Below, piece after piece: positions 42,086 through 63,658 of a DNA stretch of 64,000 nucleotides (position 1 is its first letter; each line of letters starts with the position of its first letter). The notes under the pieces were generated by a model. That model was not told where the DNA came from and did no database searches. It was given only the letters and a program-made list of their open reading frames with translations. The stretch is from a bacterium (lineage in GTDB: Bacteria; UBP15; UBA6099), in contig JAKQPS010000149.1 of NCBI GenBank assembly GCA_029564595.1, forward strand, positions 35,003-99,002, given 5' to 3'. The position numbers and the translations under genes are program-made.

Positions 42086-45000
42086 TCCTCCGCCCCCCCG
42101 GTAACAACTTTTACTTCGGCAAGGAGATTTCCAAACTTGCCGTAATTCACCTTCACACCGTCATCGAGGTCTATGGCGATCCGCTTGTCGGCGTAGTGCC
42201 TGAGTTCATCGTCAAAGGCAGAAAGTTCAGCCTGTTTCTTTTTCATGGTTTCAAGCAGCTTTCTGAACTTTGTCTTTGCGGATGTAGATGATACTTTCTC
42301 GATTTCTTTTTCAAGGAAGCCTATTCGAGCATTTATCTTGCCTTGAAGAGGTGTCACATACTCGCTTCTCATACGGGATAGCGTTCCTTCGTTATATCTG
42401 TGAAGATACACAAGGCACTGAAACGCTTTCTGCTTACCGCTGCTGAACAGCCAGTATATCGGGCGTTTCCGATATGTGCTGAGATGATCCTTGAAAAAAC
42501 CAGTGCTGAAATATCTGCGGATTGTTTCCTCCGGTGTTTCATCCTGTTTTGGCGAGAGGCTGTCCGCCACAAATTTAAGATTTTCATCCAGCGTTTCGGG
42601 AGACCACGCCACTTTCAGGAACTCAATGAATCTGTTTGTGGCATCATCCGGGAACCAGTCCATGTCCATAACGGGCACGATACCGTCTTCATCGGCAGCG
42701 AAGGTTTTATATTTTGAAGCGTCGAAGTTTCTATTGCCGCTTTCTGCGTAAACCAGACCCGGCTGATCGAGGCAGTATCGCCCCATCATGCAGCCGACTG
42801 CATAAGAGATGAGTTCCTTGATAGTGTCAGTCAGCAGCAACGATTCCAACTCCTTTTCACTCCTATTGCCACCATAACGATAATGCGGATTGCAGGTCAG
42901 CGTGATCTCGGAGAACGGTGTCTCTGGCTTTATTTCGTTAAGCAAACCATAGGCTTCAATTAAAATACGGTTGTTTTCCGTTTCCAATCGTAACATCTCC
43001 AAGGCCGTCTCTTTCCGGTGCTTGTTTAGCAATTTATAGGTTTCCATCAGGGATGGTTTGTAATAATCAGGCTGAAATAGAGGGAAAATGCCAAAGCTAC
43101 AAGAAGTTTCATAAGAATTCCAATCAATCTCAGATATTAAAAGACATCTTTCAACATTGCTTACTACAAGTTGGTCAATTTTGTCTGGAATGTAAGGAAG
43201 TGCAAATACATCATTAACCGTTGTATTAAGTGTCGGATTTATTGCCTTCAAATAATAATATGCTATAGGTGAATTTAGGAATGCCAGTGCTTTTTCATCA
43301 CATTTGTATTTTGAATTAAAAATTGTAGGCGAACCAGAACTATAAAATACGCAATCTCGTTTTATTCTGAAACTTGAAATTGCCGATGTTATCAAAGACC
43401 ATGTAATTCCTTCCCTATTCCAGAATTTAGGATTACATAATCCTCCGTTTGAATCATAAAAAGCACGGGCTGAATCAGACCAGTCAACAACATTTGTCTC
43501 ATTTCCATAATACTTCCGAAAATCCCCTCCATTTGCGTATAAAGCCCATCTGTTATTACCAGATTGAATTTCCCAGAAAAAACGAAGGTATTTTTCATTG
43601 CCATGTGTTTTATTTCTGCCCCCAGAGAAAAACCGATCCCCAATTATAGTCTGTTTGAACAAATCAGTTCCTTTTACCCAATATGCAATAGGGCTACCGG
43701 GGATTTTGGGAAAATCCTCTGGAGTCGCCTCATAAAACCATCCACAAGCTCTATTCCTTATTGCATCCAAAGTCTTCGGAGCTTGGTTGTCTGCCCCTTT
43801 GAAATCAGAGAGCCTAATAAAGCAAGATTTGTGACGATCTACTTTTTCATTCGCTATCGTGAAAGTACATATTGGAACTGTCGCTCCTTCAAAACCGGAA
43901 TATTCTAACTGGATCAAGCTGGTGATTGTTGCATCTTTAATCAGCTTGTTTCTAAGATTCTCGTAAGAGGCTATGAACATCCATACAAATGGAGACATGA
44001 ATCCAAGATTGCCAGTATATTTTGCAAATATCGTGTTTCTCACAATAAAGGATGAAAACAAATCTTTCTCGAATCCGTCGTAATTGTCTTTCAAAAAATC
44101 TTTCAGCGCTGGATTGAGGTATTTGTTTCCCATATATGGCGGATTTGCAACAACATTGCAGTATTTACCTGATAGAATCGCAGACTGTCTCACAAAAGGC
44201 ATCAGAGTATCAGCAGCCTTGTCAGCAAACAAATCACCGCTGCCACATATTGCTACTGCTGTTTTTTCAAGTAAAGGTAAGACACCCGATACATCATCAG
44301 GAATCTTTATAAGGGAACCGAAAGTCTTTCCATTTTCAAAAAGCTCAAATAGTTTATATATCTTGTCTCTTGACACTGACGGCTTGTGTTCTTCGGCAAG
44401 CGTCTGCTGCCGCTCAGTTTCCGGGAATAACTCGTTGTTGTCCACAAGCCTCTGTCGTCTTGGTTTCAGCAGCACATCGGCAATTTCTTTGGCATCAATG
44501 CCGTCGCTGCTCTGTATCGAAAGCACATTCAGCCTGACCGGATCGCCGCCGTTCAGAACACTTCTGTCATCCGCTCTCGCTTTCATCATCAGGGCGAACC
44601 CGGCAAGCTGCGCCGCCCGATCATCTATGTCCAGTCCGAAAAGGTTCTTCTCCAGTATCAGCTTCGGTATGTCCCGCAGTCTGTATCCACGTTCAAGATA
44701 GATTTCCTTCAACAGGTCATAAGCTTCCACAAGGATGTGTCCCGAACCGCAAGCCGGATCGAGTACGGTAATCTCTTCTGGGTGAAGTTCTTTCGGCGTT
44801 ATCACCGCAAGCTGTTTCTTTGCCTCGTCCGTCTGTTCCGCTTGCTCGATGTAATACTCCATCTTAGCCTTGAGAGGCGAGTGCGGGTATGTCATCAGCC
44901 ACTGCCGCCCGATGGTATTCTGAACCAGATATTTTACAATCCACTTGGGCGTAAATAACTGAGTCGCAGCCGGGATGTCCTCACTCTTTACAACTTTGCC

Positions 45001-45669
45001 GATAACTTCATCTTTTTTCTCCGAGATGTAGAACTGGTAAATCCAGCCGATGATCTCGACTTCCCGCCATTCGGATTCGTCTATGTCCGACACCAGTTTC
45101 CGAATCAGAGAATCCGTGTGCAGGAGATTTCCCGGCATCAGAAGTTCGGTTTCATCGTCAATCCGCTCGAACAGAAACGGCATCGCATGATTGAGAGCGT
45201 TGCACTGCGCCACGAGCAACATCCTGTAAAGTTCCTCATCCTTGCCGCCGTGCAGCTTCAGATCAATAGCAACATCCTTTTTCAGCCCAGGCAGTTCGAC
45301 ATCAGCAGCCTTTTCCAAAATCTCCGGTATCAGCCCACCGTCCGGATGACTTAAAACCCTGAACCCGTGATTCAGATATCCGTGAATCTCCATATATCGA
45401 AGAGCCACAAACCTGTTGAACCATGTATATGCTGCGGCTTCCATGACCTGCTCGAATCCGTTCCGTTTTGTGCGCTCCTCCAGCTTCCGCCGCTGCTCTT
45501 TAATCTTCGCCGGGAACTCCTTTCCGCCGATGAATGCAATCTCGCCCCGAACCTCCACAGGCTCAATCCTGTCTTTTGACAACCCGTAAAACCCGGCTCT
45601 CTCCGTTACCGCCTGTATGAACTCCCGTCGTGCCTTGGGAGCGTATGCTTTCAGTTGAGCAGTGTTCAT
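42082..45669 (-). CDS. pglX: BREX-1 adenine-specific DNA methyltransferase PglX
   Basis: A 1195-residue protein. SAM-binding motif I (VLDPACGSGHILVEAYDLL) is at about residue 305 and the catalytic NPPY motif (VVANPPYMGNKY) at about 510, typical of N6-adenine methylases. An N-terminal helical region and a long C-terminal target-recognition part complete the BREX-1 length. It marks host DNA at a short asymmetric site so that BREX does not act on it. The start follows the brxC stop directly (TAAATG). Confidence 0.94.
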   Translation of the reverse strand: MNTAQLKAYAPKARREFIQAVTERAGFYGLSKDRIEPVEVRGEIAFIGGKEFPAKIKEQRRKLEERTKRNGFEQVMEAAAYTWFNRFVALRYMEIHGYLNHGFRVLSHPDGGLIPEILEKAADVELPGLKKDVAIDLKLHGGKDEELYRMLLVAQCNALNHAMPFLFERIDDETELLMPGNLLHTDSLIRKLVSDIDESEWREVEIIGWIYQFYISEKKDEVIGKVVKSEDIPAATQLFTPKWIVKYLVQNTIGRQWLMTYPHSPLKAKMEYYIEQAEQTDEAKKQLAVITPKELHPEEITVLDPACGSGHILVEAYDLLKEIYLERGYRLRDIPKLILEKNLFGLDIDDRAAQLAGFALMMKARADDRSVLNGGDPVRLNVLSIQSSDGIDAKEIADVLLKPRRQRLVDNNELFPETERQQTLAEEHKPSVSRDKIYKLFELFENGKTFGSLIKIPDDVSGVLPLLEKTAVAICGSGDLFADKAADTLMPFVRQSAILSGKYCNVVANPPYMGNKYLNPALKDFLKDNYDGFEKDLFSSFIVRNTIFAKYTGNLGFMSPFVWMFIASYENLRNKLIKDATITSLIQLEYSGFEGATVPICTFTIANEKVDRHKSCFIRLSDFKGADNQAPKTLDAIRNRACGWFYEATPEDFPKIPGSPIAYWVKGTDLFKQTIIGDRFFSGGRNKTHGNEKYLRFFWEIQSGNNRWALYANGGDFRKYYGNETNVVDWSDSARAFYDSNGGLCNPKFWNREGITWSLITSAISSFRIKRDCVFYSSGSPTIFNSKYKCDEKALAFLNSPIAYYYLKAINPTLNTTVNDVFALPYIPDKIDQLVVSNVERCLLISEIDWNSYETSCSFGIFPLFQPDYYKPSLMETYKLLNKHRKETALEMLRLETENNRILIEAYGLLNEIKPETPFSEITLTCNPHYRYGGNRSEKELESLLLTDTIKELISYAVGCMMGRYCLDQPGLVYAESGNRNFDASKYKTFAADEDGIVPVMDMDWFPDDATNRFIEFLKVAWSPETLDENLKFVADSLSPKQDETPEETIRRYFSTGFFKDHLSTYRKRPIYWLFSSGKQKAFQCLVYLHRYNEGTLSRMRSEYVTPLQGKINARIGFLEKEIEKVSSTSAKTKFRKLLETMKKKQAELSAFDDELRHYADKRIAIDLDDGVKVNYGKFGNLLAEVKVVTGGAEE

Positions 45670-48600
45670 TTATTTCAGCCTCACACGGGTATTCTCTTTT
45701 AATGCCGCCATCAGTGTCGCTTTCAGGTCACTCACATAATCTTCGACATCCTGCTCGGTCTCAAGGAAAGCCTTCTTTGAAATCGCAGACGGTTTAATTT
45801 CCTTAACGGCTTTTACAGGTTTGTCATCCTTTTTAAGGGAAGCCACAACCTCATCCAAAGCCGACTCGATTCTCTGCGCTGCTTTATCTTTCATATAGCC
45901 GATGTTTGGTATGCCGGATTCGGTATCAACCTTTTCAAGAATATCCAACACAGGTTTGAGCGCCTTGTCCACAACTGCGGTATCCGCACCCATCTTCTTG
46001 AATTCATTTTTAGCCCTGTCAACTGACTGCCGGATCACTTCAGCGGCCTTGGCTTTTTCATCCGCCACCAGGGATTCATTCGCCGTCCTGATTTTCTGAA
46101 TCAGCGCATCCACATCTTTTAGAAGGGCATAAGGACTTGCCGCCTGTCTGATGTTGTTAAGCTGTGATAGTGCGCTTCTAACATCCCCGTTATCCTCAAG
46201 AATGGATTTGTTAGGCTTGAATTCATCGAGCGCTTCAAGCAGCCGCTCCCAGACAGGTCTCTGGTTCTTGAAGAATTCCGCAATGTTCGCAACATCCTCC
46301 GCAGCGTCCAGCAGTGCGTTCTTCTGCGCCACAAATTCCTTGATAAACTCGAATGTATCTTTTTTTGCGAGAACCTTCTGGATTACCGACAGAGAATCGT
46401 TAATCTCTTTTTTGCCCGGATAATTCCCTGTGTCAGCCAGAGGCTTACATCCGAGGAGTTCCTGCTGCCATGTCTTCAGGCTTCCGAATAGATATTCAAA
46501 AAGCGGGTCTTCCGCCTCCGGACCCAACTGCCCGAACAATTCTTTTCCAAGTTGACTTGCTGCCGTGAGGTCTGCTTTCTCCGCTTTCTTTTTCTTCAAT
46601 ATGGTTATCTGTTTCCATTGTCCTGTCTTCGTAAGCGGCCCTACGGCATCAGCGGGCTCGAGTGCGGAGCCGTCCATCAGTAGCGTTATTTCCCCGGCCC
46701 GGAAAAGCTTTGCAATGATGATGGCTGTTTCATATTCAGGCCAGCCACAGGGCGCTTTTGACAGCTTGGTCGTGATTTCGCCAAGCGTGATCTTGGCGTT
46801 CTTGATCGTCATCAGGTTTATCTGATCACGAATCTCGGAAATCGCTTTCGGATTCACAGCCGGAGTCGGCCCGGCAATGTCTATGCTCAGTTGTGTAACG
46901 TCGTTGGATGTGAGAATTGCTTTTATCTCAGCAACCGGGTCTTTGTGTTGCTTCTCGATGTAATCCAGTTTGTTGTAGATGTTCTGAATTAGATAATCGA
47001 GTCCCTGCTGGAGAACGGCGGCAGGTGTCGAAGCCTTCAATTGCAGTGAGTTACCCTTGGCGTAATACTCGGCTCCGCTGATGAGCTTGTTTAGCATTTC
47101 GATGATTCTGGTTTTTCGTTCCCTGTTTTCATCCTGTCTGCTTCTTAGAATGCTCTTGATGGATTCAGTCGCATCGCCGCTCTTTTTACGGATGTATTTG
47201 TCCGTCTGGATAAACGTCCTCAGTTCCCGCTCAAGGTCGGCATCATCCCAGAGCTTTATTACAAGCCGCCCCTGATCCTCCATGCTCCTCATTACGCATT
47301 TCGCTTCGTTATACATCGGATAATCTTCGGAGACCGGGGTTATAACCTCGATGCTTATATCGTTGTCCAGCTTTCCTTTGTAGGGTTGTCCGTCGCACAG
47401 GCGACTGTAAGTGTAAGGATTGTTGTTCGCCGAGTATCTGTGCTTGCCATCGGCCTTAAAAACCTCTTCAAAAAGAATTTCATTCAGTTCTTTTGTCTCC
47501 TCACTGTTCGAGACATCTTCGCCCTTTATTTCCCGGCTAACATCCCGCTCTTCGTTTGTGAGAAAGAAGAAATTGTCGCCGCTACGGTTTATCAGCGTTT
47601 CTTTTTCAAGCCGCTGTAGGCTTTCCTGTATCTTGCGTTTCAGTTCAAGCCTGTCGGCATCCACTTTATCAATTAAAAGCGTAACGAGGTTGTCCACGTT
47701 TGGTTTTGTAAGATCGACATATCGAATCAGGAACAGCGTCTGGAGCATCTGAATATCAAACGGCTTTTCGAGGCTCGGATTGTCCGCCGCCTGATCAATG
47801 ACGCTCTTCACAACGCCTTCCAGGAAGCTTTCGATGGAAGGGTAGAACTGATACAGCGGAACCAGAACGCCAGTGTCCTGATCTGAAATGGACTTTGCGG
47901 CCGTCTGGAAGGCATCCAGCATGGAGCGTTCACCACGGGCGAGATGAAGCCCGGTAACTCCCACTTTCCTTATCTGCTCGAATATCTTCTGGAGAAGCTG
48001 GAATTGATACGGCGCAAACGGATATATGGCGGCGAAATCTTCGGTGCTCTTGAAGTTTCTCAGCGTCGGCCCGTCAGACGTGAAGCTCAACTGGTTTTTA
48101 ATGATGTCGCCTTTGGTCTCGTACAGGGTAGCCAACTCCGTCTTGGCAACTTCCGTTTTTTCAAGCAGACGGGCCTGTATGACTTCATCGGTGTTGGAAC
48201 TCGAAAGAGATAACCGGGTAACAAAACGCCCCTGAATCTTGGAGAAGTCGTTGGCTTCCGTTGACCTGAGTTCTCCGATAATCCGGTCAATGTCTTCCTG
48301 TGATGTAACGATAACCCACGCTTTGCCCTTACAGACACTGCCCAAGTTCTCTGTGATCGTCTGGAGACTGAGCATCAGGTGTCCATCCTTGCCGATGAAC
48401 TGCCCGACTTCATCCACGAGAAACACAATGCGGTGATCCCGCCCGGCCTTATCAAGGTAATCCTTTACGCTCTTGGCGAAGCCTTCCACAGTCAGGCTGA
48501 ATTTGGATTCAGCATCTTCAAACCATTTCTTCGCCGACTCCTCGCTCATTCCGAGAGCCTGAGACAGGGCAGCAATCAATTCATCCTGCCTGAACAGATA

Positions 48601-49221
48601 GGCATCCCGTTCTTCCTTCCACTCGGAACCGGATATATCCTTGAAAGCCTCGTGGAATTTTTTCAGCTTTCCTTTCTTGCTGAGATACCTTTCCATTTCA
48701 GCGATGTGAGGATCACTGCTGAAACCCTGCATCTGGTTGAACACTTTCATAAAGACTGCAAGTATGGATTGACGACCATCCCGTGCATCTGCTTTACTGT
48801 CTATGTTGAACAATATGACATCGGTGTTTGTGTCAGCGGCTCTCTTCATGTCTGAGTACAGCATGGCATCCGGGACTCGTTCTTCCATGAAAGAAACGGC
48901 ATTCCGAGATTCGCCAGTGGCGGGGTTGCTGACCGAGAGATTGCTTAAAACATAAGAGAGGATTTTTATGAAATGGGATTTACCGGAGCCGAAAAAGCCG
49001 GATACCCAGACACCTGTCTTACCGCTGACGTTGGGGTCTCCGGCTCTGTCAATGGATTCCAGATATGCGGTAAAAAACTTATGCAGATATTGATTGAGTT
49101 CACGGGTGACGACATACTCGCTGAGTTCCTGATAGATTATTTCTTCGTCACGCTGGTCAGCCTTAACCACGCCGTTTATCGGCCTGAATATATCCTTTGC
49201 GAACAGGTTCTTGATTTTCAT
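45670..49221 (-). CDS. brxC: BREX ATPase BrxC
   Basis: An 1183-residue P-loop protein. Walker A is GFFGSGKSHFIKIL near residues 75-88; HRIVFLVDEVGQFIG near residue 270 fits Walker B. The long C-terminal part is charged and coiled, as usual for BrxC/PglY. It is the largest ATPase of BREX and probably the engine that couples DNA sensing to restriction; this is inferred from the family. The gene follows brxB by 34 bases in the same operon. Confidence 0.93.
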   Translation of the reverse strand: MKIKNLFAKDIFRPINGVVKADQRDEEIIYQELSEYVVTRELNQYLHKFFTAYLESIDRAGDPNVSGKTGVWVSGFFGSGKSHFIKILSYVLSNLSVSNPATGESRNAVSFMEERVPDAMLYSDMKRAADTNTDVILFNIDSKADARDGRQSILAVFMKVFNQMQGFSSDPHIAEMERYLSKKGKLKKFHEAFKDISGSEWKEERDAYLFRQDELIAALSQALGMSEESAKKWFEDAESKFSLTVEGFAKSVKDYLDKAGRDHRIVFLVDEVGQFIGKDGHLMLSLQTITENLGSVCKGKAWVIVTSQEDIDRIIGELRSTEANDFSKIQGRFVTRLSLSSSNTDEVIQARLLEKTEVAKTELATLYETKGDIIKNQLSFTSDGPTLRNFKSTEDFAAIYPFAPYQFQLLQKIFEQIRKVGVTGLHLARGERSMLDAFQTAAKSISDQDTGVLVPLYQFYPSIESFLEGVVKSVIDQAADNPSLEKPFDIQMLQTLFLIRYVDLTKPNVDNLVTLLIDKVDADRLELKRKIQESLQRLEKETLINRSGDNFFFLTNEERDVSREIKGEDVSNSEETKELNEILFEEVFKADGKHRYSANNNPYTYSRLCDGQPYKGKLDNDISIEVITPVSEDYPMYNEAKCVMRSMEDQGRLVIKLWDDADLERELRTFIQTDKYIRKKSGDATESIKSILRSRQDENRERKTRIIEMLNKLISGAEYYAKGNSLQLKASTPAAVLQQGLDYLIQNIYNKLDYIEKQHKDPVAEIKAILTSNDVTQLSIDIAGPTPAVNPKAISEIRDQINLMTIKNAKITLGEITTKLSKAPCGWPEYETAIIIAKLFRAGEITLLMDGSALEPADAVGPLTKTGQWKQITILKKKKAEKADLTAASQLGKELFGQLGPEAEDPLFEYLFGSLKTWQQELLGCKPLADTGNYPGKKEINDSLSVIQKVLAKKDTFEFIKEFVAQKNALLDAAEDVANIAEFFKNQRPVWERLLEALDEFKPNKSILEDNGDVRSALSQLNNIRQAASPYALLKDVDALIQKIRTANESLVADEKAKAAEVIRQSVDRAKNEFKKMGADTAVVDKALKPVLDILEKVDTESGIPNIGYMKDKAAQRIESALDEVVASLKKDDKPVKAVKEIKPSAISKKAFLETEQDVEDYVSDLKATLMAALKENTRVRLK

Positions 49222-49255
49222 CTTGGCTTCCTCGATCCTCTGATTGTGTCTGTCG

Positions 49256-49828
49256 TCAGTCCACGAGCCTGAACGCCCGGTAGTAATTGCTTTTGATTTT
49301 TCCGAACAGTTTTAGCTCCTGCCCGTCGTAAGTGCCCGGATAGAAAAGCACCAGCGGCACATTCTGGAAGTATGTGTGAAGGTTATTCAGCAGGGTATGG
49401 CTGCGGAGCATCGGGTAGCAGCTTCCAACGCCATACACTAAGATCAGGTCGTGCTTGTCCGGCTCCGCTTCCTTAACAAACACTTCGGCGACCTTGGTTT
49501 CATTCAACGGCCCCTTCAAAGCCTTCATCAGGGCTTCATCGCCTTTTTCTCTCTGTATTGCGAATGATTTGTCCAGAAGATTACGCTCTTTCAGATACTG
49601 GATAAGCAATTCAAAAAGGTTGATTGTTTTTATCCGAATGTCAGGATGCTTCTTTGACACCTGTTTTGCTATGTGGTGTACGTTCTCCCGAATCTCAAGT
49701 TCACAATCAGGCGGGTAGTCAAAGATGTAGAAAGCAATTTCATTGCCCAAACCCGTGCTTTCAAGAAACTCTTTTGACTGGACTCTCTGAATTGCTTTGT
49801 TCAAGCGGTTCTTCAGGTCTTCATTCAT
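49256..49828 (-). CDS. brxB: BREX protein BrxB (DUF1788)
   Basis: A 190-residue protein of the BrxB family: GLGNEIAFYIFDYPPDCELE, then LLDKSFAIQREKGDEALMKA, LILVYGVGSCYPMLRSHTLL and VPLVLFYPGTYDGQELKLFG. That last phrase is the recognisable core of DUF1788. The biochemical role is unknown, but the gene is a core part of type 1 BREX. It overlaps the brxA stop (ATGA). Confidence 0.92.
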   Translation of the reverse strand: MNEDLKNRLNKAIQRVQSKEFLESTGLGNEIAFYIFDYPPDCELEIRENVHHIAKQVSKKHPDIRIKTINLFELLIQYLKERNLLDKSFAIQREKGDEALMKALKGPLNETKVAEVFVKEAEPDKHDLILVYGVGSCYPMLRSHTLLNNLHTYFQNVPLVLFYPGTYDGQELKLFGKIKSNYYRAFRLVD

Positions 49829-50427
49829 TCAAATATCCCCATACACCGGATCAGGTAGTATTCGCTGTGAGATTTCAGATAACTCTGTATCTCAGGCAGT
49901 ATTCTAACAGGTATCAGCTTCATTGACTTAGTGCTGTCCATATATTTCGCTTCGGCGAGAATTCGGAACACCACTTGCCGTACCTTCTTCTTGGTCGTTT
50001 CAGCCCACGATGTGATCTCCGGTGCTCTCTGCTCACAGGTTTCAAAGAACTTGTCCCAGTCCCGAAGCGACAGTTGGCTTTCAAAAACCTGAACCTTTGT
50101 GCTTTTTACTTCTAAAAGAAAGTCGCCGAGCAGACGGCTCTGTTTTACCGTCGCCGCCATCAGAGCCTGTACGCAAGAATCATAACTTCCATCTGTGACA
50201 ATTTCCCACAGTTCGGGCTGCATAAGCTCCAGACGGTTTCGGATCAACCGTGTCTGCCTCTTAGCGGAGGCCGGGCTGCGCTTCATCAGCACGTTGTCGC
50301 CCCGGATGGCTTGTTTCCAGTCCTCCTCAGTGGCGTTGGCAAGCAGGAGCTTCGCCACCTCCCGGCTTTCCGATATGAGCAGGGAGCCAGCGGCTATGTC
50401 GGCTGCATAAATTTCCGAAACACGCAT
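49825..50427 (-). CDS. brxA: BREX protein BrxA (DUF1819)
   Basis: A 200-residue protein. The ATG at 50427 is chosen because AGAAGGTCTGAGAAA lies before it and the family begins there. The sequence IYAADIAAGSLLISESREVA, RSPASAKRQTRLIRNRLELM and LLGDFLLEVKSTKVQVFESQ matches DUF1819/BrxA, a small helical DNA-binding protein. It is the first gene of the BREX operon, transcribed leftward from a promoter near 50495. No BrxR-type WYL regulator gene is seen next to it. Confidence 0.92.
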   Translation of the reverse strand: MRVSEIYAADIAAGSLLISESREVAKLLLANATEEDWKQAIRGDNVLMKRSPASAKRQTRLIRNRLELMQPELWEIVTDGSYDSCVQALMAATVKQSRLLGDFLLEVKSTKVQVFESQLSLRDWDKFFETCEQRAPEITSWAETTKKKVRQVVFRILAEAKYMDSTKSMKLIPVRILPEIQSYLKSHSEYYLIRCMGIFE

Positions 50428-50491
50428 TTTCTCAGACCTTCTGATCGCAAGACCTCCCGGAGGCCACAATCCTCAGTGGAGAGCATGGAGT

Positions 50492-52735: not shown

Positions 52736-52924
52736 ATGAAGACGACATGTGAAGAAAGGAAAGAAATCCGGTGTCAATCATGTGAAACTCTGCTTGCGAT
52801 TGAATCGGACGGAACCATTCAAATCAGATACAAAAAGGAGGTGAATCTCACGGTTTCAAAAGACCTGCATGTTGTGTGCAGGGGATGCGGAAAGGTCCAT
52901 CTTATCAGGATCGAAAAAAGATAG
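52736..52924 (+). CDS. Com-like zinc-finger protein (Mu Com family resemblance)
   Basis: A 62-residue protein; the ATG at 52736 follows GGGGGAACA. Two CxxC knuckles (IRCQSCETLLA and VVCRGCGKVHLI) are separated by a strand rich in Lys. Size and pattern resemble phage Mu Com, an RNA-binding translational activator that opens a hairpin hiding the start of mom. The second knuckle is further away than in Mu Com, so the match is partial. The next gene begins 79 bases downstream, inside a strong hairpin, as in com-mom. Confidence 0.6.
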   Translation: MKTTCEERKEIRCQSCETLLAIESDGTIQIRYKKEVNLTVSKDLHVVCRGCGKVHLIRIEKR

Positions 52925-52968
52925 CCTGAAATTCATGGACAACAGGATTCAGAAAATGGCTTAGAGAG

Positions 52969-53014
52969 GTGCGTGACGCCCGGCCGGAAAGGACGGCGGG
53001 CTTATGTCACGCAC
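52969..53014 (+). promoter_or_regulatory. Hairpin enclosing the start of the sigma-like gene
   Basis: GTGCGTGAC (52969-52977) pairs with GTCACGCAC (53006-53014), and GCCCG (52978-52982) with CGGGC (52997-53001). The bulge TTAT holds the A and U of the AUG at 53004, and the loop holds GGAAAGGA, the likely ribosome site. This would block translation until opened, for example by the Com-like protein encoded just before. Confidence 0.65.
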
Positions 53015-53822
53015 ATCGAAGGAAGAAATTCGTCATGCCATTTTTACGGAGGTACAGTCAAGGGAGTTCAACCAGCCGTTTCAAGAGATGCAGGAGGCAT
53101 CTCGCGCGCTGGCTCTTTTCACAGATGCGGGTGAACTCGTCCATTGTATGCATCAGCGGGACAACGGCAAAGACGAGGAACAGGACATAAAAAACAGAGT
53201 TCTCCGCGATCTGATAATCGCGGCCAAGTATTCGCGGAAATATAGTTCCGCGGCGCAGTCCCTCTGTATCGCGGCGCTGTGGCCGGGGCTGGATAGGGTA
53301 TCAAAGCAGGTGGAATCCTCGCCGGAGCCGATTCAGGATTCCTTCGCGGAGGTTTACAACGCGACTCTTCAGGAAATCCAGTCCTGGGACATGGACAAAC
53401 AGGATAAAATTGCCGCCAATATTCTGCTGAACGTGAAGAAGCGCGTTTTGATGCTGTACGATGCCGTCAGAGAGACCGAAACAACCCCGTTCAAATCCCC
53501 CGACAACACGGACGACGATGTTGACGCGGGAGCGTTCGAGGGTGGCGCGGATGAAGTCGTTGATGAAAAAACCGTCGAGTCGCAGGTTGAGGAGGAGCTT
53601 TGCTCTTCCGCGCTCGACCGGCTGGTCGCGGCGAACGTTATCAGTCCCCAGGAATCGCTTCTGATCGTTCTTCGCGTCTTTCAAGGGCACGAGCTTGACG
53701 CAATCGCTGAATCACTCGGCATAAGTTACAAGACTTTATGCCGTAGATACGAGCGCGCGATAGAGCGACTGGAGAAGTTTTTCAAAGACGAAAAGGGTTA
53801 CTGGGCGTTTCTGAATTCATGA
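53004..53822 (+). CDS. Sigma-70-like regulatory protein
   Basis: A 272-residue protein. Residues about 215-265 (SPQESLLIVLRVFQGHELDA followed by IAESLGISYKTLCRRYERAI) form a region 4-like helix-turn-helix. The middle is acidic (DDDVDAGAFEGGADE), as in a linker, and residues about 60-160 are helical and could be a region 2-like part, though no -10 recognition motif is clear. It may direct RNA polymerase to phage or cargo promoters. Its start codon is partly buried in a hairpin, so its translation is probably switched. Confidence 0.6.
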   Translation: MSRTSKEEIRHAIFTEVQSREFNQPFQEMQEASRALALFTDAGELVHCMHQRDNGKDEEQDIKNRVLRDLIIAAKYSRKYSSAAQSLCIAALWPGLDRVSKQVESSPEPIQDSFAEVYNATLQEIQSWDMDKQDKIAANILLNVKKRVLMLYDAVRETETTPFKSPDNTDDDVDAGAFEGGADEVVDEKTVESQVEEELCSSALDRLVAANVISPQESLLIVLRVFQGHELDAIAESLGISYKTLCRRYERAIERLEKFFKDEKGYWAFLNS

Positions 53823-54213
53823 CTCGGCCGGACTGCGGCGACGCGCGGGAAATCGGCGACTGAATTTCCAATTATCGCGTGACGCGTGATAAGATATGTG
53901 GACAGGGAGCGGCGCGTCATGATGATAACTCCGAGGAATTCTTTTAGATTAAACTATGCTTTAATTGCACCTGCCTTAATTAAAGGATGGCGGCACATCC
54001 TTTAATTGGCAAGCCTCTTGGTAATGTTTGCGGTTTTCGCGGGCGGTATTTTTTGGGTATCAAACCGGATCGCTCCAAGATATACACATCTGGAAATATC
54101 ATGTCTGTTTTACGTATGGAGAGAATCTATTCAAAATGCTTGCATATTTGCAGTTGAAATGCATAATTACATATTAGACGGGTTTTGTTGAGCTAAAAGG
54201 CAAGGTGATTTGC
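53823..54213. other. Intergenic region with repeat elements
   Basis: Nothing convincing is coded in these 391 bases. A palindrome-like TTATCGCGTGACGCGTGATAA lies around 53873-53893, containing the same GCGTGACGC string as the hairpin at 52971. It is followed by the 12-bp inverted repeat at 53978-54007. A hydrophobic reading at 54006-54191 has no ribosome site and begins inside that repeat. Confidence 0.4.
53978..54007. repeat. Perfect 12-bp inverted repeat
   Basis: AATTAAAGGATG (53978-53989) and CATCCTTTAATT (53996-54007) are exact inverses around a 6-base GCGGCA loop. It lies between the sigma-like gene and the ATPase gene. It could be a hairpin terminator lacking a clean U-tract, or a DNA-protein binding site. 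Confidence 0.6.
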
Positions 54214-55428
54214 ATGAAATATATTCCACGTTCCGTAGAGCCAATTCTGAAGAAATCCGCAAAAGAGTTTCCCGTTATCGCGCTGACCGGGCCGAGGCAA
54301 GCCGGGAAAACAACTCTTTTGAAACATCTGTACGGAAAAAGCCACAAGTATGTTTCCCTTGAGACCCCGGTCATTCGCGCTGCTGCGACGGATGATCCCC
54401 GCGGCTTTCTCGACATGTATTCTCCGCCTGTTGTATTCGATGAAGTTCAGCATGTTCCCGATTTGCTCCCGTATATAAAAGAAATGGTTGATGCAAATAG
54501 AAACACACCAGGACAATTCATTCTGACAGGTTCGCAGAACCTTCTCCTCGCGCAAAACATCACGGAAACTCTGGCCGGAAGATCAGCGGTGCTCAGGCTA
54601 CTGCCTGTAACCTACCGTGAGCAGACAGGTGTTCCGGGACAGCCGCTGCCATGGGAAAAGGGGAAAAGAAACGAAAGAAAAAAGATATCGTCGAAAGACC
54701 TGTGGCGAAGCATCCTGCGTGGCGGGTATCCTGAGCTCGTCGCCGGTGGACACCGGAATTTATCGCTCTGGCACGGAAGTTACGTGCAAACATATCTTGA
54801 AAGGGATGTGCGGACACTGCGGCAGGTGGGCGACCTCACACAGTTTCAGACGTTCCTGCGGGCGCTCGCCGCCCGAAGCGCGCAGTTGTTGAATCTCTCG
54901 GAACTTGCGCGGGATATCGGCGTAGCGGTAAACACGGTCAAATCGTGGTTGTCGGTTCTTGAGGCCTCCTATCAGGTGATAATCCTTCGCCCATATTTTG
55001 AGAACATCGGAAAAAGACTTGTGAAATCGCCGAAAGTGTATTTCACTGATACCGGAACGCTATGCTACCTCGTTGGTCTCGAAGACCCCGAACACGCCGT
55101 CAAAGGACCAATGGGTGGCGCGATCATGGAAACAGCGGTCGTGAATGAAATCCACAGGTCACTGATTCATCGTGGAGAAACACCGCGGATGTATTTCTGG
55201 CGGACGTCCAACGGTACGGAAATTGACATTGTTATTGACGCAGGGAACCGACTGATACCCATAGAAATTAAATCGTCCGCCACGCCGAACCGTGGCATGG
55301 CAAAAGGCATTGAGGCGTTCAGAAAAGATTTCGGCGAAAAAGCCTCAAAGGGATTTGTGATATGCCCATGCGAAGCGTCGCTGCCACTCGGCCCGGACGC
55401 TGCGGCATGGCCGTTTTTTGATCTGTGA
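54214..55428 (+). CDS. AAA ATPase with DUF4143 (AAA_14 family)
   Basis: A 404-residue protein; the ATG at 54214 follows AAGGTGATTTGC. Walker A is TGPRQAGKTTLLKHL near residues 28-42, VVFDEVQHVPDLL is Walker B and LTGSQN is the sensor region. The C-terminal DUF4143 nuclease-like part contains AIMETAVVNEIHRSL, YFWRTSNGTEIDIVID and IPIEIKSSATPN, in which D/E...E.K residues suggest a PD-(D/E)XK fold. Such proteins are common in mobile and host genomes and their role is not settled. It is the last gene before the tRNA fragment. Confidence 0.85.
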   Translation: MKYIPRSVEPILKKSAKEFPVIALTGPRQAGKTTLLKHLYGKSHKYVSLETPVIRAAATDDPRGFLDMYSPPVVFDEVQHVPDLLPYIKEMVDANRNTPGQFILTGSQNLLLAQNITETLAGRSAVLRLLPVTYREQTGVPGQPLPWEKGKRNERKKISSKDLWRSILRGGYPELVAGGHRNLSLWHGSYVQTYLERDVRTLRQVGDLTQFQTFLRALAARSAQLLNLSELARDIGVAVNTVKSWLSVLEASYQVIILRPYFENIGKRLVKSPKVYFTDTGTLCYLVGLEDPEHAVKGPMGGAIMETAVVNEIHRSLIHRGETPRMYFWRTSNGTEIDIVIDAGNRLIPIEIKSSATPNRGMAKGIEAFRKDFGEKASKGFVICPCEASLPLGPDAAAWPFFDL

Positions 55429-55812: not shown

Positions 55813-56550
55813 CTAATCGAGTATCAATTCGGTCTGAGGTTTTTGATAGTTCCAAAGAAATCCAGCATCATCTTTTGATTCGCTGATAATTTCGACAAGA
55901 ATATTTTCAATTTCCTTATTCCACCATTTTCTACTTCTGACGTTATCGCCAAAAACTACCAGTAGCGTGGTAAATATGTAATCAAGCGACTTCCCGCAAA
56001 TAAATGGAACCCAGTTTTTATACAATTCTTGTTTCGTCATAGGGGTATTTTCTTCTATTTGATAACAACCATCGGGTCCCAAGAAAACATTTTGGATTGA
56101 GCGATAAGAAAGGGATGGTATAACCTCCAACTTTCTTATCGATGATTTCCTACAGTCAAAAGAAGAATCGTAATTGCCATGTGTCCTTTTGTTGAGAAAT
56201 ACATACGTTGTTTTATACTCATTTTGATATCCAACCTGATTGAACCTATTCTGAATACTCGGCATACGATCTTCGTAATATTTCATTTCATTTACTTGAG
56301 GATTTTTCGATATCCATTGTAGGTTCACTGAGGTTTCTATCAAACATCTCAATAATGCCAAGGAAGATGTAACGTGGGCTGCTTCAAGCAGTTGAGATAT
56401 CCCCTTCGTATATTCAGACATTAGATTTATATGTATCTTGAACACTTCCAAGCAATTTGAAAAAATTCGAGGATTTGCTTTTTTAACCGACATATCTAAC
56501 CATTCCGCCGCGTCAAGCATAGTAACAAAAAGCGCAACGTGCTTTTTCAA
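55813..56550 (-). CDS. DUF5677-like protein of the methylase cassette
   Basis: A 245-residue protein. The core LLEAAHVTSSLALLRCLIET, then SVNLQWISKNP resembles the DUF5677/AbiV-type helical domain, which often appears in phage defence and has a conserved His region (here NKRTHGNYDSS). Its start overlaps the Vsr stop by 4 bases, so it is the last gene of the leftward operon. The function is unknown; an effector role is possible. Confidence 0.55.
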   Translation of the reverse strand: MKKHVALFVTMLDAAEWLDMSVKKANPRIFSNCLEVFKIHINLMSEYTKGISQLLEAAHVTSSLALLRCLIETSVNLQWISKNPQVNEMKYYEDRMPSIQNRFNQVGYQNEYKTTYVFLNKRTHGNYDSSFDCRKSSIRKLEVIPSLSYRSIQNVFLGPDGCYQIEENTPMTKQELYKNWVPFICGKSLDYIFTTLLVVFGDNVRSRKWWNKEIENILVEIISESKDDAGFLWNYQKPQTELILD

Positions 56551-57011
56551 TAAGTCGTTCCCCCCTCTAAAAGCGAAGATGCGTCCCTTTTCTTATCAAC
56601 CCAGCCTTTTTGAAGTAATTTTCTTTCTATGCGAACGATAGTGCGTTTGTATTTAAGTTGACATTCCCATACTCTAATAACTGACCAACCTTCTCGCCTA
56701 AGTTTCGAAGTTACTTTTCTATCATGTCTTTTATTGATATCGATTTTATCTTCCCAGTAAGCAACATTACTTTTAGGGGGGGTATAACAATGGGGACAAC
56801 CATGCCAGAAGCACCCATCGACAAAAAGGGCTATCTTCTGTCTTGGCCAACAGAAATCCGGCGTTCCAGGTATTTTATAGTGTCTTCTCCAGCCATTTAA
56901 TCGGTTATTGCGCAGAAGAGACAGCATCTTTTTTTCTGTGCTCGCATTTCCTCGCGACTTAATCGCCGCCATGTATTGAGATCGGGTTGCTTTATCAACT
57001 ATATCGGCCAA
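56547..57011 (-). CDS. vsr: Very-short-patch repair endonuclease
   Basis: A 154-residue protein with the typical Vsr layout. It has RSQYMAAIKSRGNASTEKKM at the start, then KIPGTPDFCWPRQKIALFVD with the catalytic Asp, GCFWHGCPHCYTPPKSN with zinc-binding Cys/His, and DIDINKRHDRKVTSKLRREG. It nicks at T:G mismatches that arise when 5-methylcytosine deaminates. Being next to a cytosine methylase is the usual context; it can also serve as a nuclease in restriction-like systems. Confidence 0.9.
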   Translation of the reverse strand: MADIVDKATRSQYMAAIKSRGNASTEKKMLSLLRNNRLNGWRRHYKIPGTPDFCWPRQKIALFVDGCFWHGCPHCYTPPKSNVAYWEDKIDINKRHDRKVTSKLRREGWSVIRVWECQLKYKRTIVRIERKLLQKGWVDKKRDASSLLEGGTTY

Positions 57012-57084
57012 AGTTTTCTTCTCTTTATCAAACTGAAAACGACATGTTCATAGTGTCTTTATCAAAAAAAGAGATGCTTTTACC

Positions 57085-58005
57085 TTATATAGCAACTTTA
57101 GTGAAATAGGGATAATATTTATAAAAATCAGCGTATTGCCGCATCATTTCTGAATTTTCCGCTTCAGATTCTCCAATCATGTAACCAAGTTTTGTAGCTA
57201 AATTTCTTTCAGTATTATTTTCATCTGGAAGTAAATGTTCCAAATGAAGCCTCTCCTTAATACTCAATACAGGAAGCTTGATCTTGTGTGGAGCTTCCCA
57301 TTCAGTGTTTGCAAATTTCCAAGTTGCAAAAAGGCCTTTAACCATATCAACATTCCCTAATTCGCATATTATTCCCGTTACATTTAGCATGTCAGTACCA
57401 TCTGAATAATAGGTCGATGATATAGGTTGAAAAACAATTCCGTTAGAAGCTGGAAGGATACCTTCGACAGACTTTCTAATCATTTTTTGAATAAGTTCTG
57501 GTAAGCTTTTCTTTATATATTGATCACTTACAGCAGAAGGCAACAACGATTGAAATATCTCTTTAAAAGATTCAACTCCCTGCTCGCGATTCGCTCTTAA
57601 TGTCAGTTTTATGATTGTTCCGTTACAACCCCTATCTAACAATTTATTGAACTCCAAAAACCTCTCGATTTTTAAGTCGGTATAATCCAACCAAAAAATC
57701 TCTCTTCCTGTACAAGAGTATGTTGTTATAAAGTCGTTAAGGCTCGCGTGATGTAATTCTAATCGCTTTGTAAATTTGTGAAATTTCTGTCTTTTATAGG
57801 TTTCCTCGTTTTGTTCAATAGAAACCATCTTAATATTGGGATAAAATGTATTTATCAGGCGGCAATCTTCTAAAAAAGGCCCACATAAGCCGTAATATGT
57901 ATAGTTAGATAGAGTATAATTATTGCTCAGTTTTGATAAAACCTCTATCAGTAAGTTGCGATCTACAGCTTTGTTAAGACGGAGATGATATGGCGGATGA
58001 TTCAT
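57085..58005 (-). CDS. Unknown protein, perhaps methyltransferase-like fold
   Basis: A 306-residue protein. Segments such as YGLCGPFLEDCRLINTFYP, IKMVSIEQNEETYKR and REIFWLDYTDLKIERFLEF are arranged like a Rossmann-type domain with an acidic end of strand 2 (IEQN), as in SAM-dependent enzymes, but the glycine motif is poor. The C-terminal part (LPVLSIKERLHLEHLLPD) is helical. Its start overlaps the GHKL gene by 4 bases. Its function is probably tied to that protein. Confidence 0.45.
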   Translation of the reverse strand: MNHPPYHLRLNKAVDRNLLIEVLSKLSNNYTLSNYTYYGLCGPFLEDCRLINTFYPNIKMVSIEQNEETYKRQKFHKFTKRLELHHASLNDFITTYSCTGREIFWLDYTDLKIERFLEFNKLLDRGCNGTIIKLTLRANREQGVESFKEIFQSLLPSAVSDQYIKKSLPELIQKMIRKSVEGILPASNGIVFQPISSTYYSDGTDMLNVTGIICELGNVDMVKGLFATWKFANTEWEAPHKIKLPVLSIKERLHLEHLLPDENNTERNLATKLGYMIGESEAENSEMMRQYADFYKYYPYFTKVAI

Positions 58006-59414
58006 TTGCGAGCCTCTTTCAATACCCGATCAAAACAGCTTTCGCCGACTTTTGATGCGCTCGCATCAGCATCATCAAGCAAGAACTTTCCAATTATCTT
58101 AATCTCATTTGTTTCGCGGACAAAAGCAATGCGTTGCTTTGTTGTTGGTTCTGGTGGCGGTAATGGTAAGTTCGGCCTAAATTGTTTGCCGCCCGGGCCC
58201 TTTATTACGGTTCTAAATTGTTCTTTTCCAATTTCTTTTTTCAATTCCTCAAAGGGCATTAATTTGCCTTTCTTAATATTTTCTTTCCCCTCCTTTACGT
58301 TGATTGATTTCCATTTGTTAGTGTAGTTAATAAAAAGACCCATTCCTTCTCTCATTTTGTTCTTAACTTGAAGGTAGATGGTAGAATTTGCATTGATTCC
58401 CCGCTTGGTTGTAGTTGTAGGTAAATTTCTAGGATCATCACTCTTGAACTCTACAATTCCTGAGATTGCGATAAACTGTGTATGATACGAAGGCAAGCCA
58501 GCTTCACCCCAGCCGGTAAGCTCGCTTTTATCGTTGTATAGAACCACTCTGTCATTGCATATAACTGTCCATCCTGCATCTTTTGATGAAAATAGTTTGC
58601 CCTCCTGGTCCTTATCCAATTCTTCCTGTGAAGGAATGGGGCGGGTAAAACCGACTGCTAAGTACACCTCAACACCGTTTGTCTTTGCCCTATAAATGAA
58701 AGGTTTTATTGAATTTTTATTTTTTATATCTGAAAAAACCAGACTAGGAATTTTAGCCTCAACTTTTTTCCCGTTCAAAAACACTTCAAATCCTCTGTCA
58801 ATTATGAGAGCATAATGTGACGACACGGCTTTATACAATTCATCTTCAAACAAGTTTGAATCGTGCCCAAGAAGGGTGGAAATACCAGGATAGATATCTT
58901 TAATACATACTGTTGTGCCGTCTTCTTTTATAGTTGGTTTCGTTTTTTGAGTCGGTAGATACCAATTATCTTCATCAATAATCCAATCAGATGAAATTTT
59001 GACTTCGTAAGAGTCACCTTGATTTTTTGTGGAAATCAAACATTCCTTTCCAATTTTAAATATCGCCCTTTTCATACCTATGCCATAAGCCCCTACACCT
59101 CCTTTTTGTATTTTGGCATCTTTGGGTCTGCCCATTTTGAAAGCATAATCATGCAGCGCCCATGGAATGCCACCACAGTTGTCATGAATTGAAAAAATGG
59201 AGTCCGAAAATGTGATTTTTGCATAAAACCCTTTGTATGGTTTGTCGCTGGCACGCTTATTCGCGCTTCTTAGTATTCCATCGACGCAATTGTCTAACAA
59301 GTCGAGTACAGCGTCTATCAATTGTATGTCTCTCGTGAGCATATCAACAAAAAAAGATTTTGCAGGCCGCGCATCAACAACATCTGGATGTGTAGTCGTT
59401 GTTTTGGGATTCAT
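58002..59414 (-). CDS. GHKL ATPase (MORC-like) of the methylase cassette
   Basis: A 470-residue protein. The ATG at 59414 is preferred because AGAGAGATG lies before it. The GHKL N-box DAVLDLLDNCVDG, G1 box IHDNCGGIPW and GVGAYGIGMKRAIFKIG are clear, so it binds ATP in a Bergerat fold, as in MutL, Hsp90 and MORC. Prokaryotic MORC-type ATPases are known beside Dcm methylases and Vsr nucleases in restriction-like operons (Iyer, Abhiman and Aravind 2008). It may form a clamp on DNA. It follows the methylase gene closely and overlaps the next gene. Confidence 0.85.
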   Translation of the reverse strand: MNPKTTTTHPDVVDARPAKSFFVDMLTRDIQLIDAVLDLLDNCVDGILRSANKRASDKPYKGFYAKITFSDSIFSIHDNCGGIPWALHDYAFKMGRPKDAKIQKGGVGAYGIGMKRAIFKIGKECLISTKNQGDSYEVKISSDWIIDEDNWYLPTQKTKPTIKEDGTTVCIKDIYPGISTLLGHDSNLFEDELYKAVSSHYALIIDRGFEVFLNGKKVEAKIPSLVFSDIKNKNSIKPFIYRAKTNGVEVYLAVGFTRPIPSQEELDKDQEGKLFSSKDAGWTVICNDRVVLYNDKSELTGWGEAGLPSYHTQFIAISGIVEFKSDDPRNLPTTTTKRGINANSTIYLQVKNKMREGMGLFINYTNKWKSINVKEGKENIKKGKLMPFEELKKEIGKEQFRTVIKGPGGKQFRPNLPLPPPEPTTKQRIAFVRETNEIKIIGKFLLDDADASASKVGESCFDRVLKEARK

Positions 59415-59433
59415 AATGACATCTCTCTTTCTG

Positions 59434-60597
59434 TCATACATTTTGAAGTTTGCAAAATACAACTTTCATAATGAATTCAGCAAGTATTGGGCTCACACTG
59501 TTTCCTATTTGTCGGAAACTATGCCACTTGGTTGGTGAAAATTGAAACCAATCTGGAAATCCTTGCAGTCTGGCCGCCTCCCTTGGCGTAATCACCCGGT
59601 TCTCGGTTGGATGAAGCGGTCTTACAGCCTGATAACTTCCGCGTTCGCGACCTGTTCCTGCCCTGAGAGTTGGGCAAAATCCATTTGGATCAAGTCTTTG
59701 CGCTTTCGAGACATAATCACGTTTGCCCTGTCCTACCTTCGCGTATCTTTCAGAGACTTCTTGTGAATGCACCGTTCCCAAAAAACCAGATACAAGCCTC
59801 TTGCTTTTAAGACGTTCGATAGCTTCCATATCCCCAACCTCTTCAGGAATATGTCCATGCAATCTTCCGCCAAAATAACCGTTCAGTACATATCGGACTG
59901 GTCTCCATCCATCCCGTTCGGATTGCCAGGACGGTTTTATCTTTGTTGGCAGGCCTTTTAGTGCGTCACATACACGTACGATTTCCATCCCTTTTGGAGG
60001 CATAAAGTCTTCTGGTGTCAAAGGGCTCATCTCGTCTTTCTGATATCCGAAAAAGAAAATGCGTTTTCTTGTTGTAGGCGCGCCATATTCATTGGCTGAG
60101 AGAACCATTGGGGACAATAAAACATAATCCTTTTCAATTATTGAAAAGGCTCTTTCCCTTGTTTCCCGATTTTTTTCGCCCATTATTCCCGGAACATTCT
60201 CAGCCAAAAAGAATTTTGGGCGAGTTTCCGCGACTATTCTAAAAAACTCAACAAACAGGCCATTGCGAGCATCGCCCTTATTGTTTCTTCCTATGTGACT
60301 GAAACCTTGGCATGGCGGCCCACCAATGATTCCAGCAAGGTCGCCGTTCCTTAAATTCAATGAAGTTCTCAGGTTATGTCCTGTGAGTTTTGAAACATCA
60401 ACAGCTAAATGATCCGTCTTCAGAAAATTTTTTTTATGGGCGTTCATTGCTTCCGAATCAATCTCCACTGCTCCGCTCACAACAAATCCTGCACGAGCGG
60501 CTCCAAGACTCAATCCTCCTGCTCCGCTGAATAGATCGACAATCTGATGAGAATCGCGCCTTTGCTTGATTCCGACGCTGTGTAATTTGTTGGACAT
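59434..60597 (-). CDS. DNA cytosine-5 methyltransferase (Dcm family)
   Basis: A 387-residue protein. Motif I is DLFSGAGGLSLGAARAG near residue 20, motif IV is GGPPCQGFSHIGRNN near residue 94 with catalytic Cys, motif VI is FLAENVPGI, and the closing VITPREAARLQGFPDWF with IGNSVSP matches motifs IX-X. It methylates cytosine in a short DNA site that cannot be read from sequence. It is the first gene of the leftward operon with a TATAAT promoter. Confidence 0.93.
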   Translation of the reverse strand: MSNKLHSVGIKQRRDSHQIVDLFSGAGGLSLGAARAGFVVSGAVEIDSEAMNAHKKNFLKTDHLAVDVSKLTGHNLRTSLNLRNGDLAGIIGGPPCQGFSHIGRNNKGDARNGLFVEFFRIVAETRPKFFLAENVPGIMGEKNRETRERAFSIIEKDYVLLSPMVLSANEYGAPTTRKRIFFFGYQKDEMSPLTPEDFMPPKGMEIVRVCDALKGLPTKIKPSWQSERDGWRPVRYVLNGYFGGRLHGHIPEEVGDMEAIERLKSKRLVSGFLGTVHSQEVSERYAKVGQGKRDYVSKAQRLDPNGFCPTLRAGTGRERGSYQAVRPLHPTENRVITPREAARLQGFPDWFQFSPTKWHSFRQIGNSVSPILAEFIMKVVFCKLQNV

Positions 60598-60652
60598 ACT
60601 ATTCAGGCCAGTCCCTTGTTGGGCGCAATTTGAAAATTACCACTGAAGTGGA

Positions 60653-60681
60653 ATTATACTTGTTCGCAAAATATTTGTATA
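60653..60681 (-). promoter_or_regulatory. Promoter of the methylase operon
   Basis: On the minus strand TATACA (60676-60681) is followed after 17 bases by a perfect TATAAT (60653-60658), 55 bases before the methylase ATG. No operator is obvious in the 185-base gap. Confidence 0.5.
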
Positions 60682-60782
60682 TCTTTGCGAGCCCATTGGG
60701 CGTACTGCCGATTTATCGAATTCCTTCATGATTTCGATGGAAAGGATGTTTTTTAATTGAAAAAGAGAAAACGCAAATCATA

Positions 60783-62611: not shown

Positions 62612-63658
62612 ATGCAAAACGACAGAGACCGGGAAATTCTCACTTACTCGAGCATCAAGACGTTTCGCAACTGTCGGAGAATGTACGACCTGAGATATAA
62701 CCGGCATCTTGCGCCGATTGACGAGGACTCGGAAGCGCAGGCTCTCGGAACCATTTTTCACGGGAGCATGGAACGGTGGTACGGTCGCGACATAGCCGTC
62801 CCCGTGGAGCAAGCCGGAAACAGCGTCCTCGAATACATCGACGGCGCCTGCCCCGACAGGGTTCATGATGACCGTCAGCGGAAGATGTGGCATCTCGCCC
62901 GTGCGATGTTTCTGGGGTATGTGAAGCGGTATCCCTCGGAAGGCTTCGACGTCGTCGCGGTTGAGAAAGAATTCGAAAGCCAGATCATCAATCCCGACAC
63001 CGACTGTCCGAGCCGCACATTCATCATGCGAGGCAAGGTCGACGGCATCATTCTGAAGGACGGGAAGCACTATCTCCTCGAACACAAGACAGCCTCGACC
63101 ATCGACGGCAATTACATCGAGCGGCTGCCGATGGATTTTCAGATTATTCTCTATTCCGACTACATAGAGAGATTCCTGAACATCCGCATCGCGGGCATTC
63201 TGTACAACGTCGTCGGCAAAGCGCAGCTCAAACAAAGCAAGGGCGAGACTCTTGCCGAATTCGAAGAGCGCCGAGCGGCGCTGATAGCAAAATCCAAAAC
63301 CGGCAAATCGTCCGCAAAGCAGCAGATGCCAGAGTCCGACGATGATTTTCAAGCGCGGCTCGCCGTGAAATATGCCGAAGACGATATGTTCCACCGCGAG
63401 CTTCTCATCATTTCCCGCGACAACTTCGATGTGTTGCATTCCGAGGTCTGGGAACTTACCCAGCAGCTTCTGCTCGCGCGGCGCTCTGGCCGATGGTATA
63501 TGAACACCGATTACTGCTTCCACTACAACCGCCAGTGTATTTACTTTCCCATCTGCCGCTCGGGCGAAAATCCCAACGTCATTGAAAACCTCTATCGCGT
63601 TGTGCCGCCTCATTCCGAACTGAGCGGCCCCGCCGTGGAGCCAGAACCAGTTTTTTAG
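62612..63658 (+). CDS. PD-(D/E)XK nuclease, Cas4/RecB-like with Fe-S cysteines
   Basis: A 348-residue protein behind AAAGGAGGG. It starts LTYSSIKTFRNCRRMYDLRY with a first Cys, has GTIFHGSMERWYG, the catalytic GKVDGIILKDGKHYLLEHKT (D...E.K), and near the C-terminus a Cys group in YCFHYNRQCIYFPIC. The one-plus-three Cys layout is that of Cas4/AddB nucleases with an iron-sulfur cluster. In phages such exonucleases work in recombination or replication. It is followed 29 bases later by an ATPase gene. Confidence 0.82.
   Translation: MQNDRDREILTYSSIKTFRNCRRMYDLRYNRHLAPIDEDSEAQALGTIFHGSMERWYGRDIAVPVEQAGNSVLEYIDGACPDRVHDDRQRKMWHLARAMFLGYVKRYPSEGFDVVAVEKEFESQIINPDTDCPSRTFIMRGKVDGIILKDGKHYLLEHKTASTIDGNYIERLPMDFQIILYSDYIERFLNIRIAGILYNVVGKAQLKQSKGETLAEFEERRAALIAKSKTGKSSAKQQMPESDDDFQARLAVKYAEDDMFHRELLIISRDNFDVLHSEVWELTQQLLLARRSGRWYMNTDYCFHYNRQCIYFPICRSGENPNVIENLYRVVPPHSELSGPAVEPEPVF

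Follow-up and report, generated by a model that had tools for sequence, protein, structure and literature searches.

The 64,000-nucleotide stretch of bacterial DNA analyzed here (the window) contains what is likely to be a Com-type, protein-controlled RNA switch that gates the translation of a prophage sigma-like factor, probably by activation, although both protein binding and the activating sign are inferred. The Com protein of phage Mu is the classic and nearly solitary case of a protein that activates translation by remodelling a hairpin at the start of an mRNA, and its mode of recognition is still debated. In Mu, Com is an activator that binds a short hairpin adjoining a translation-inhibition structure that includes the mom start codon; its motif is CC(N)2-3GAG in a hairpin loop, of which the loop C and the GA are protected by Com (PMC6483171). 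A preliminary description of the window had proposed that a Com-type RNA switch outside com-mom gates a transcription factor, and this is supported, the sign remaining an inference. Com was already known upstream of mom and Dam genes, being annotated before a Dam gene in phage B3; what is new is the placement of such a switch on a sigma-like gene, for which there are no binding or translation data. No report of Com together with a sigma gene was found in the literature searched. The features of the locus are collected in Table 1.

Table 1. Features of the Com-like/sigma-like locus (positions are those of the window)
Feature	Position	Strand	Description and basis
Com-like zinc-ribbon protein	52736..52924	+	62 aa; C13xxC16 ... 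C48xxC51; open reading frame, PHROG 6417, family alignment and hhalign
Leader between the Com-like and sigma-like genes	52925..52965	+	Relatives have the first short-hairpin copy here; no recognisable one in the window
Linker GGCU	52958..52961	+	Counterpart of the conserved linker GGCC able to pair with GGCC after copy 2 (52982-52985)
Presumed Com-type binding hairpin, second copy	52968..52980	+	GGUG-CGUGA-CGCC, loop C-NN-GA; fits the Com motif C(N)2-3GA (PMC6483171)
Start-codon hairpin	52969..53014	+	Fold, conserved in L004 and L009, covariance model match; counterpart of the mom translation-inhibition structure
SD-like AAAGGA	52988..52993	+	Apical loop, 10 nt 5' of the AUG; from sequence
Sigma-like regulator	53004..53822	+	272 aa, ECF-like regions 2 and 4; start codon inside the hairpin; Sigma70_r4, TIGR02937 and CnrH matches

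The start-codon hairpin begins 45 nt past the last base of the Com-like stop codon (44 bases between) with a 9-bp outer stem, GUGCGUGAC/GUCACGCAC, in which 52969-52977 pairs with 53006-53014. The inner stem (52978-52986/52994-53001) has 4 + 4 bp around one bulged G, GCCC at 52978-52981 being paired with GGGC at 52998-53001 and GCCG at 52983-52986 with CGGC at 52994-52997. The 7-nt apical loop, GAAAGGA, contains the Shine-Dalgarno (SD) sequence, and in the AUG (53004-53006) the A and U lie in a UUAU bulge and the G is paired in the 3' arm. The RNA from 52960 to 53020 folds as a very stable hairpin with an energy of −32.2 kcal/mol (z −5.4), a stability reached by 0 of 200 dinucleotide shuffles. 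The earlier claims of a 62-residue protein with two CxxC knuckles, of a hairpin 45 bases on and of the presence in it of the AUG and ribosome site therefore all held; of the “9+5-bp” hairpin, the outer stem was correct but the inner stem was not. The claim that the hairpin hides the start is only partly right, as the RNA folding shows that the ribosome footprint is folded, yet the SD and the AU are unpaired; any sequestration in the free leader would thus be by a folded footprint and not by full pairing.

The distinctness of this site was examined by running over 386 genomes a covariance model trained on 27 leaders, among which the window, its two near relatives and one further locus (L015) were not included. 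At E ≤ 0.001 it matched only a distant genome, G041, and the window site; the former match is expected because the G041 leader is in the training set, but the latter (52965-53008, E 8.6e-4) is the single match at this threshold in a 4.4-Mb genome. Since a model made without the window finds exactly this site, the hairpin is not a chance structure, and the restriction of matches to these two genomes also indicates that the family is sparse outside prophage contigs. Within the window, the only exact match to the 16-mer motif is at 52966-52981, other, chance matches carrying 2-3 mismatches. A palindrome-like sequence, TTATCGCGTGACGCGTGATAAG, whose core resembles GCGTGACGC of the hairpin, is found at 53880-53905, right after the sigma-like gene.

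The Com-like protein was proposed to resemble Com, and sensitive profile searches support this. It matches PHROG 6417, “translational regulator,” with an E value of 1.8e-4, and a profile of its 25-member family aligns with the six classical Com proteins with an hhalign probability of 96.4% and E ~1e-9 (1.1e-9), with a gap of ~16 columns between the CxxC pairs that represents an insertion. The four Cys are invariant across the family (alignment A9), and the two CxxC pairs have the conserved surroundings RC..C.(K/R)LL and C..C.TLN (alignments A9 and A10); in the window protein the Cys and RC..C..LL are present and TLN is absent. It should be noted, however, that the match of the window protein to Pfam PF10122, Zn_ribbon_Com, is 13.6 bits, under the curated cut-off of 22.9, and that this model is the most frequent match of the family (13 of 25 members), weak and under the cut-off throughout, with a best E value of 3.8e-4. 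The predicted structure is all-beta (pLDDT 78), and a Foldseek search with it gave no informative match. Judged from sequence alone, the protein is probably a distant relative of Com and not a certified member, the term “Com-type” referring to its working; in the absence of binding data it is a presumed RNA-binding regulator.

The controlled gene was described as encoding a region 4-like regulator, and region 4 is confirmed by a match to Sigma70_r4 (PF04545; E 4.4e-6, 26.6 bits, above the curated cut-off of 24.1). The description is to be extended, as the protein also matches TIGR02937 over residues 110-258, covering regions 2 to 4 (E 5.8e-9), and the family profile matches the CnrH sigma over the same regions (E 1.3e-5). 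The TIGR02937 score, 35.8 bits, is under the curated whole-protein cut-off of 42.9 for sigma70-ECF factors; 12 of 21 family members match this model at E ≤ 0.001. By these sequence comparisons, the protein looks like an ECF-type sigma factor with recognisable regions 2 and 4, but it differs from ECF sigma factors such as CnrH in having an extra N-terminal domain with a conserved motif, LWPGL, and in that no anti-sigma partner was noticed.

In Shinella (L143), the sigma-like gene heads a run of genes for an AAA_24 ATPase, a helicase, a PD-(D/E)XK nuclease, AAA_25 and DUF6362, and genes similar to this run come after the sigma-like gene in other viral loci; the next genes in Shinella and other relatives are a replication and recombination module. 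In the window, the sigma-like gene is followed by ATPase and defence genes, with a PD-(D/E)XK nuclease at 62612. The gene immediately 3' of it (54205-55428) encodes an AAA ATPase of the PADLOC candidate family PDC-S01, and a very similar gene also adjoins a paralogous locus in the same genome (L009, 1-610). Two other groups in the window, both on the minus strand, may be recorded. BREX defence genes occupy 42082-50469 (PglX, 42082-45669; BrxC, 45670-49221; BrxB, 49256-49828; and a probably BrxA-like gene, 49825-50469), and a second defence-like group at 56547-61907 comprises a Vsr endonuclease, an unknown protein of 306 aa, another of 486 aa with the look of a MORC-type ATPase, and a cytosine methyltransferase, with an integrase-like open reading frame at 60783-61907 after it.

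Comparison shows that the Com-like gene, hairpin and sigma-like gene form a widespread prophage cassette, found in dozens of prophage-like contigs of IMG/VR, and not a one-off. The paralogous locus in the window's own genome (C149, L009) and a third locus in a related genome (G003, bacterium ADurb.Bin236; L004) each have a small CxxC/CxxC open reading frame, a leader, the same hairpin and a sigma-like gene. The window and G003 differ in 3 of ~50 hairpin bases, as compared with 66% DNA identity over the remainder of the sigma-like gene and ~30% identity of the Com-like proteins. The same gene order is found in G041, which belongs to another phylum and in which the stem sequence is partly different and a UUG start directly follows the 3' arm, and the arrangement recurs in a different family of that phylum (L015). 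The leaders have GAGGYGCNNGACGCCC in common. Early viral scans with alignments A1, A3 and A4 gave no match, and the family was found through a motif scan: the hairpin pattern retrieved 85 stretches from IMG/VR, most with a Com-like open reading frame upstream and a sigma-like gene that begins 36 bases past the motif's first base. Matches to the pattern that had U tracts, or that were not accompanied by the gene pair, were discounted as terminators or chance. A tblastn search of the GenBank phage collection found no sigma-like relative, with one hit in an unannotated stretch of a Shinella megareplicon.

Loci fetched by the motif are biased for it, and the counts of genes, hairpins and compensatory changes use loci fetched by protein instead. 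IMG/VR was searched with the sigma-like proteins alone, giving 97 loci with ≥120 nt upstream; 80 of 231 A6 relatives were kept. A Com-like open reading frame and a start hairpin are present in 91 of the 97, which is 91 of the 91 with an assessable start, as in the remaining six (L227, L241, L244-L247) the protein match is only partial and does not extend to the true start. The predicted conservation of the stem in relatives with the same genes was thereby borne out. These counts are of non-independent events; many contigs are near-identical, and 17 or 30 representatives were used for this reason. A separate group of viral contigs (L069, L078, L098, L107, L120, L140) has hairpins resembling terminators, GAGGCGCAAGACGCCC...GGGCGTCTTTTT, in which the 16-mer is also present, and in L078, L107, L120 and L140 these precede another conserved gene, of ~490-497 aa.

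The leaders contain a short hairpin, NNNN-C(N)2-3GA-NNNN, usually in two copies. The gene-proximal copy (copy 2) is GGYG-CNNGA-CGYC in all leaders; the upstream copy (copy 1), with 4 bp, lies 30-34 nt 5' of it in 16 of 17 non-redundant protein-selected leaders, as against a frequency of 1.5% in mononucleotide shuffles, and the window is the one leader without it. Pairing is supported by double compensatory changes at pair 2 (G-C to A-U, in L146 and L194) and pair 4 (G-C to C-G, in L238 and L015) and by G-U variants at pairs 2 and 3, whereas in the loop the C and GA are invariant and the NN is free. In L238 and L015, copy 1 agrees letter for letter with the published Com motif. In viral leaders the 3' arm of copy 2 doubles as the 5' arm of the start-codon hairpin, and that of the window copy overlaps both stems; the two structures share bases and are therefore mutually exclusive. 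The start-region hairpin averages −32 kcal/mol over 30 leaders, compared with −15.5 kcal/mol for 87 control starts from these loci, and AGG is present in its apical part in 28 of the 30, marking the likely SD; its lower stem is nearly invariant and shows little covariation of its own. A helix between the linker GGCC and the GGCC after copy 2 can form with 3-6 bp in 30/30 leaders (mean 5, versus 3.6 in shuffled linkers) and might keep the short hairpin in place, but this evidence is suggestive only. In some leaders the linker pairs with early codons instead, extending the closed form. In L029, L042, L146 and similar leaders, for example, the linker GCCACGAGAAGG is complementary to the stretch CCTTCGCGTGGC of codons 3-7 of the sigma-like gene (11/12 pairs in L146), a pairing that would lengthen the closed hairpin.

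Six classical Com leaders from GenBank phages (Mu, JD024, Phipami28, B3, Chuche and Mcat3) were compared with these; in Phipami28, B3 and Chuche, Com is associated with Dam or other DNA methyltransferase genes. A 4-bp hairpin with the loop C-NNN-GA is present at −29 to −35 from the next start in five of the six, and in the sixth, Chuche, the loop is present but one pair is mismatched; the background is ~2% in shuffles and ~6 of 150 control starts. This hairpin before Dam or Mom-like genes (L248-L252: Chuche, JD024, Phipami28, Mcat3, B3) may be a general signature of Com control. The present cassette resembles com-mom of Mu, D108 and SfMu in having a small CxxC/CxxC protein encoded directly upstream in the same orientation, a hairpin over the SD and start codon of the next gene and a short hairpin with the loop C(N)3GA ~30 nt 5' of the start. 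It differs in that the controlled gene is sigma-like and not a DNA modification gene, the leader is intergenic (79-123 nt from the com stop to the next start) and does not overlap com, there are usually two sites, one of which overlaps the start-codon hairpin, and ~13-16 residues are inserted between the two CxxC pairs of the Com-like protein. The com-dam systems of Pseudomonas phage B3 and its relatives Phipami28 and Chuche also have Com upstream of a gene other than mom, with the C-NNN-GA hairpin at the same place in B3 and Phipami28, but a DNA modification gene is still controlled and the reading frames still overlap. The coat-protein operator hairpin of RNA phages (MS2 type) likewise holds an SD and start codon and is bound by a small phage protein; that protein is unrelated and a repressor, however, and there is no alternative hairpin.

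In the proposed mechanism, the leader without the protein would fold as a strong hairpin occupying the ribosome-binding region and start codon, so that little sigma-like protein is made. The Com-like protein, encoded on the same strand just upstream, would bind the short hairpin GGYG-C(N)2-3GA-CGCC; as the 3' arm of copy 2 and the 5' side of the start-codon hairpin consist of the same bases, binding at copy 2 would exclude that hairpin, freeing the SD (AAGG in the loop) and start codon for translation. In most relatives the second site, ~30 nt upstream, would also be bound. The sigma-like protein is then inferred to guide RNA polymerase to genes of the prophage. Comparison shows the three-part anatomy and its conservation, the compensatory changes and the match to the known Com site; binding and this last step are inferred only, and activation is argued from the Mu analogy and from the mutual exclusion of the two structures. 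Forcing the short hairpin costs 0-20 kcal/mol at equilibrium (16 in the window), and opening would therefore need co-transcriptional timing or more than simple binding; by inference, the choice is expected to fall during synthesis of the RNA, in which the short hairpin is completed ahead of the 3' arm. A further difficulty for the mechanism is that in several leaders, with copy 2 alone engaged, copy 1 is able to pair with the 3' arm. The window member is diverged and without copy 1, and it is possible that the family-wide case is weaker there.

Among the alternatives, a switch of opposite sign is unlikely but is the most substantial: the Com-like protein would repress, or the closed hairpin would be the active form, bringing an upstream purine-rich SD, the GAGG at the hairpin base, near the start, as in hairpin-bridged starts. 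In its favor, the start of copy 2 reads AGGAGG in 10 of 30 leaders, and the start codon lies 0-2 nt past the stem in most, so that a closed stem would put GAGG near it. However, GAGG also precedes the core of copy 1, which is before no start codon, in most leaders and is thus probably part of the binding motif; the apical AGG is at a normal SD distance in 28/30 leaders, the AUG of the window itself enters the 3' arm, and classical Com is an activator (PMC6483171).

Two further readings appear very unlikely. The repeats could be DNA operators for a transcription factor, the RNA hairpin being a by-product, and the spacing of two direct repeats by ~30 bp, near three helical turns, would suit this; but RNA pairing is kept by G-U pairs and double compensatory changes, the loop (C..GA) is asymmetric, and the site lies between two co-oriented genes at a fixed distance from the start codon. 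The hairpin could instead be an attenuator or terminator between the genes, as suggested by its strength and G+C richness, its location in an intergenic leader and a few look-alikes with U tracts from the same pattern scan (L069, L078, L107, L120). No U tract follows it in the window, nor as a rule in the family, and it sits on the start codon; the look-alikes, moreover, are without Com-like and sigma-like genes.

The reading of the locus as a Com-type switch that activates translation is thus preferred. A bolder version, for which the case falls a little short, is that in a large phage or prophage family, as yet undescribed, a two-site Com-type switch serves for timing or as a threshold gate on a dedicated sigma-like factor, both short hairpins having to be occupied first (copy 1, too, is able to pair with the 3' arm), and that a zinc-dependent RNA-binding protein would thus control the prophage transcription program. 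The family provides dozens of natural leaders with matching proteins, divergent enough for the recognition rule to be read, a loop of C(N)2-3GA on a stem of largely free sequence, and these sets allow tests of recognition by co-variation and swaps. A device of DNA modification genes has apparently been transferred to the gene of a transcription factor that heads a replication module, and this points to a strategy that may be more general among phages.
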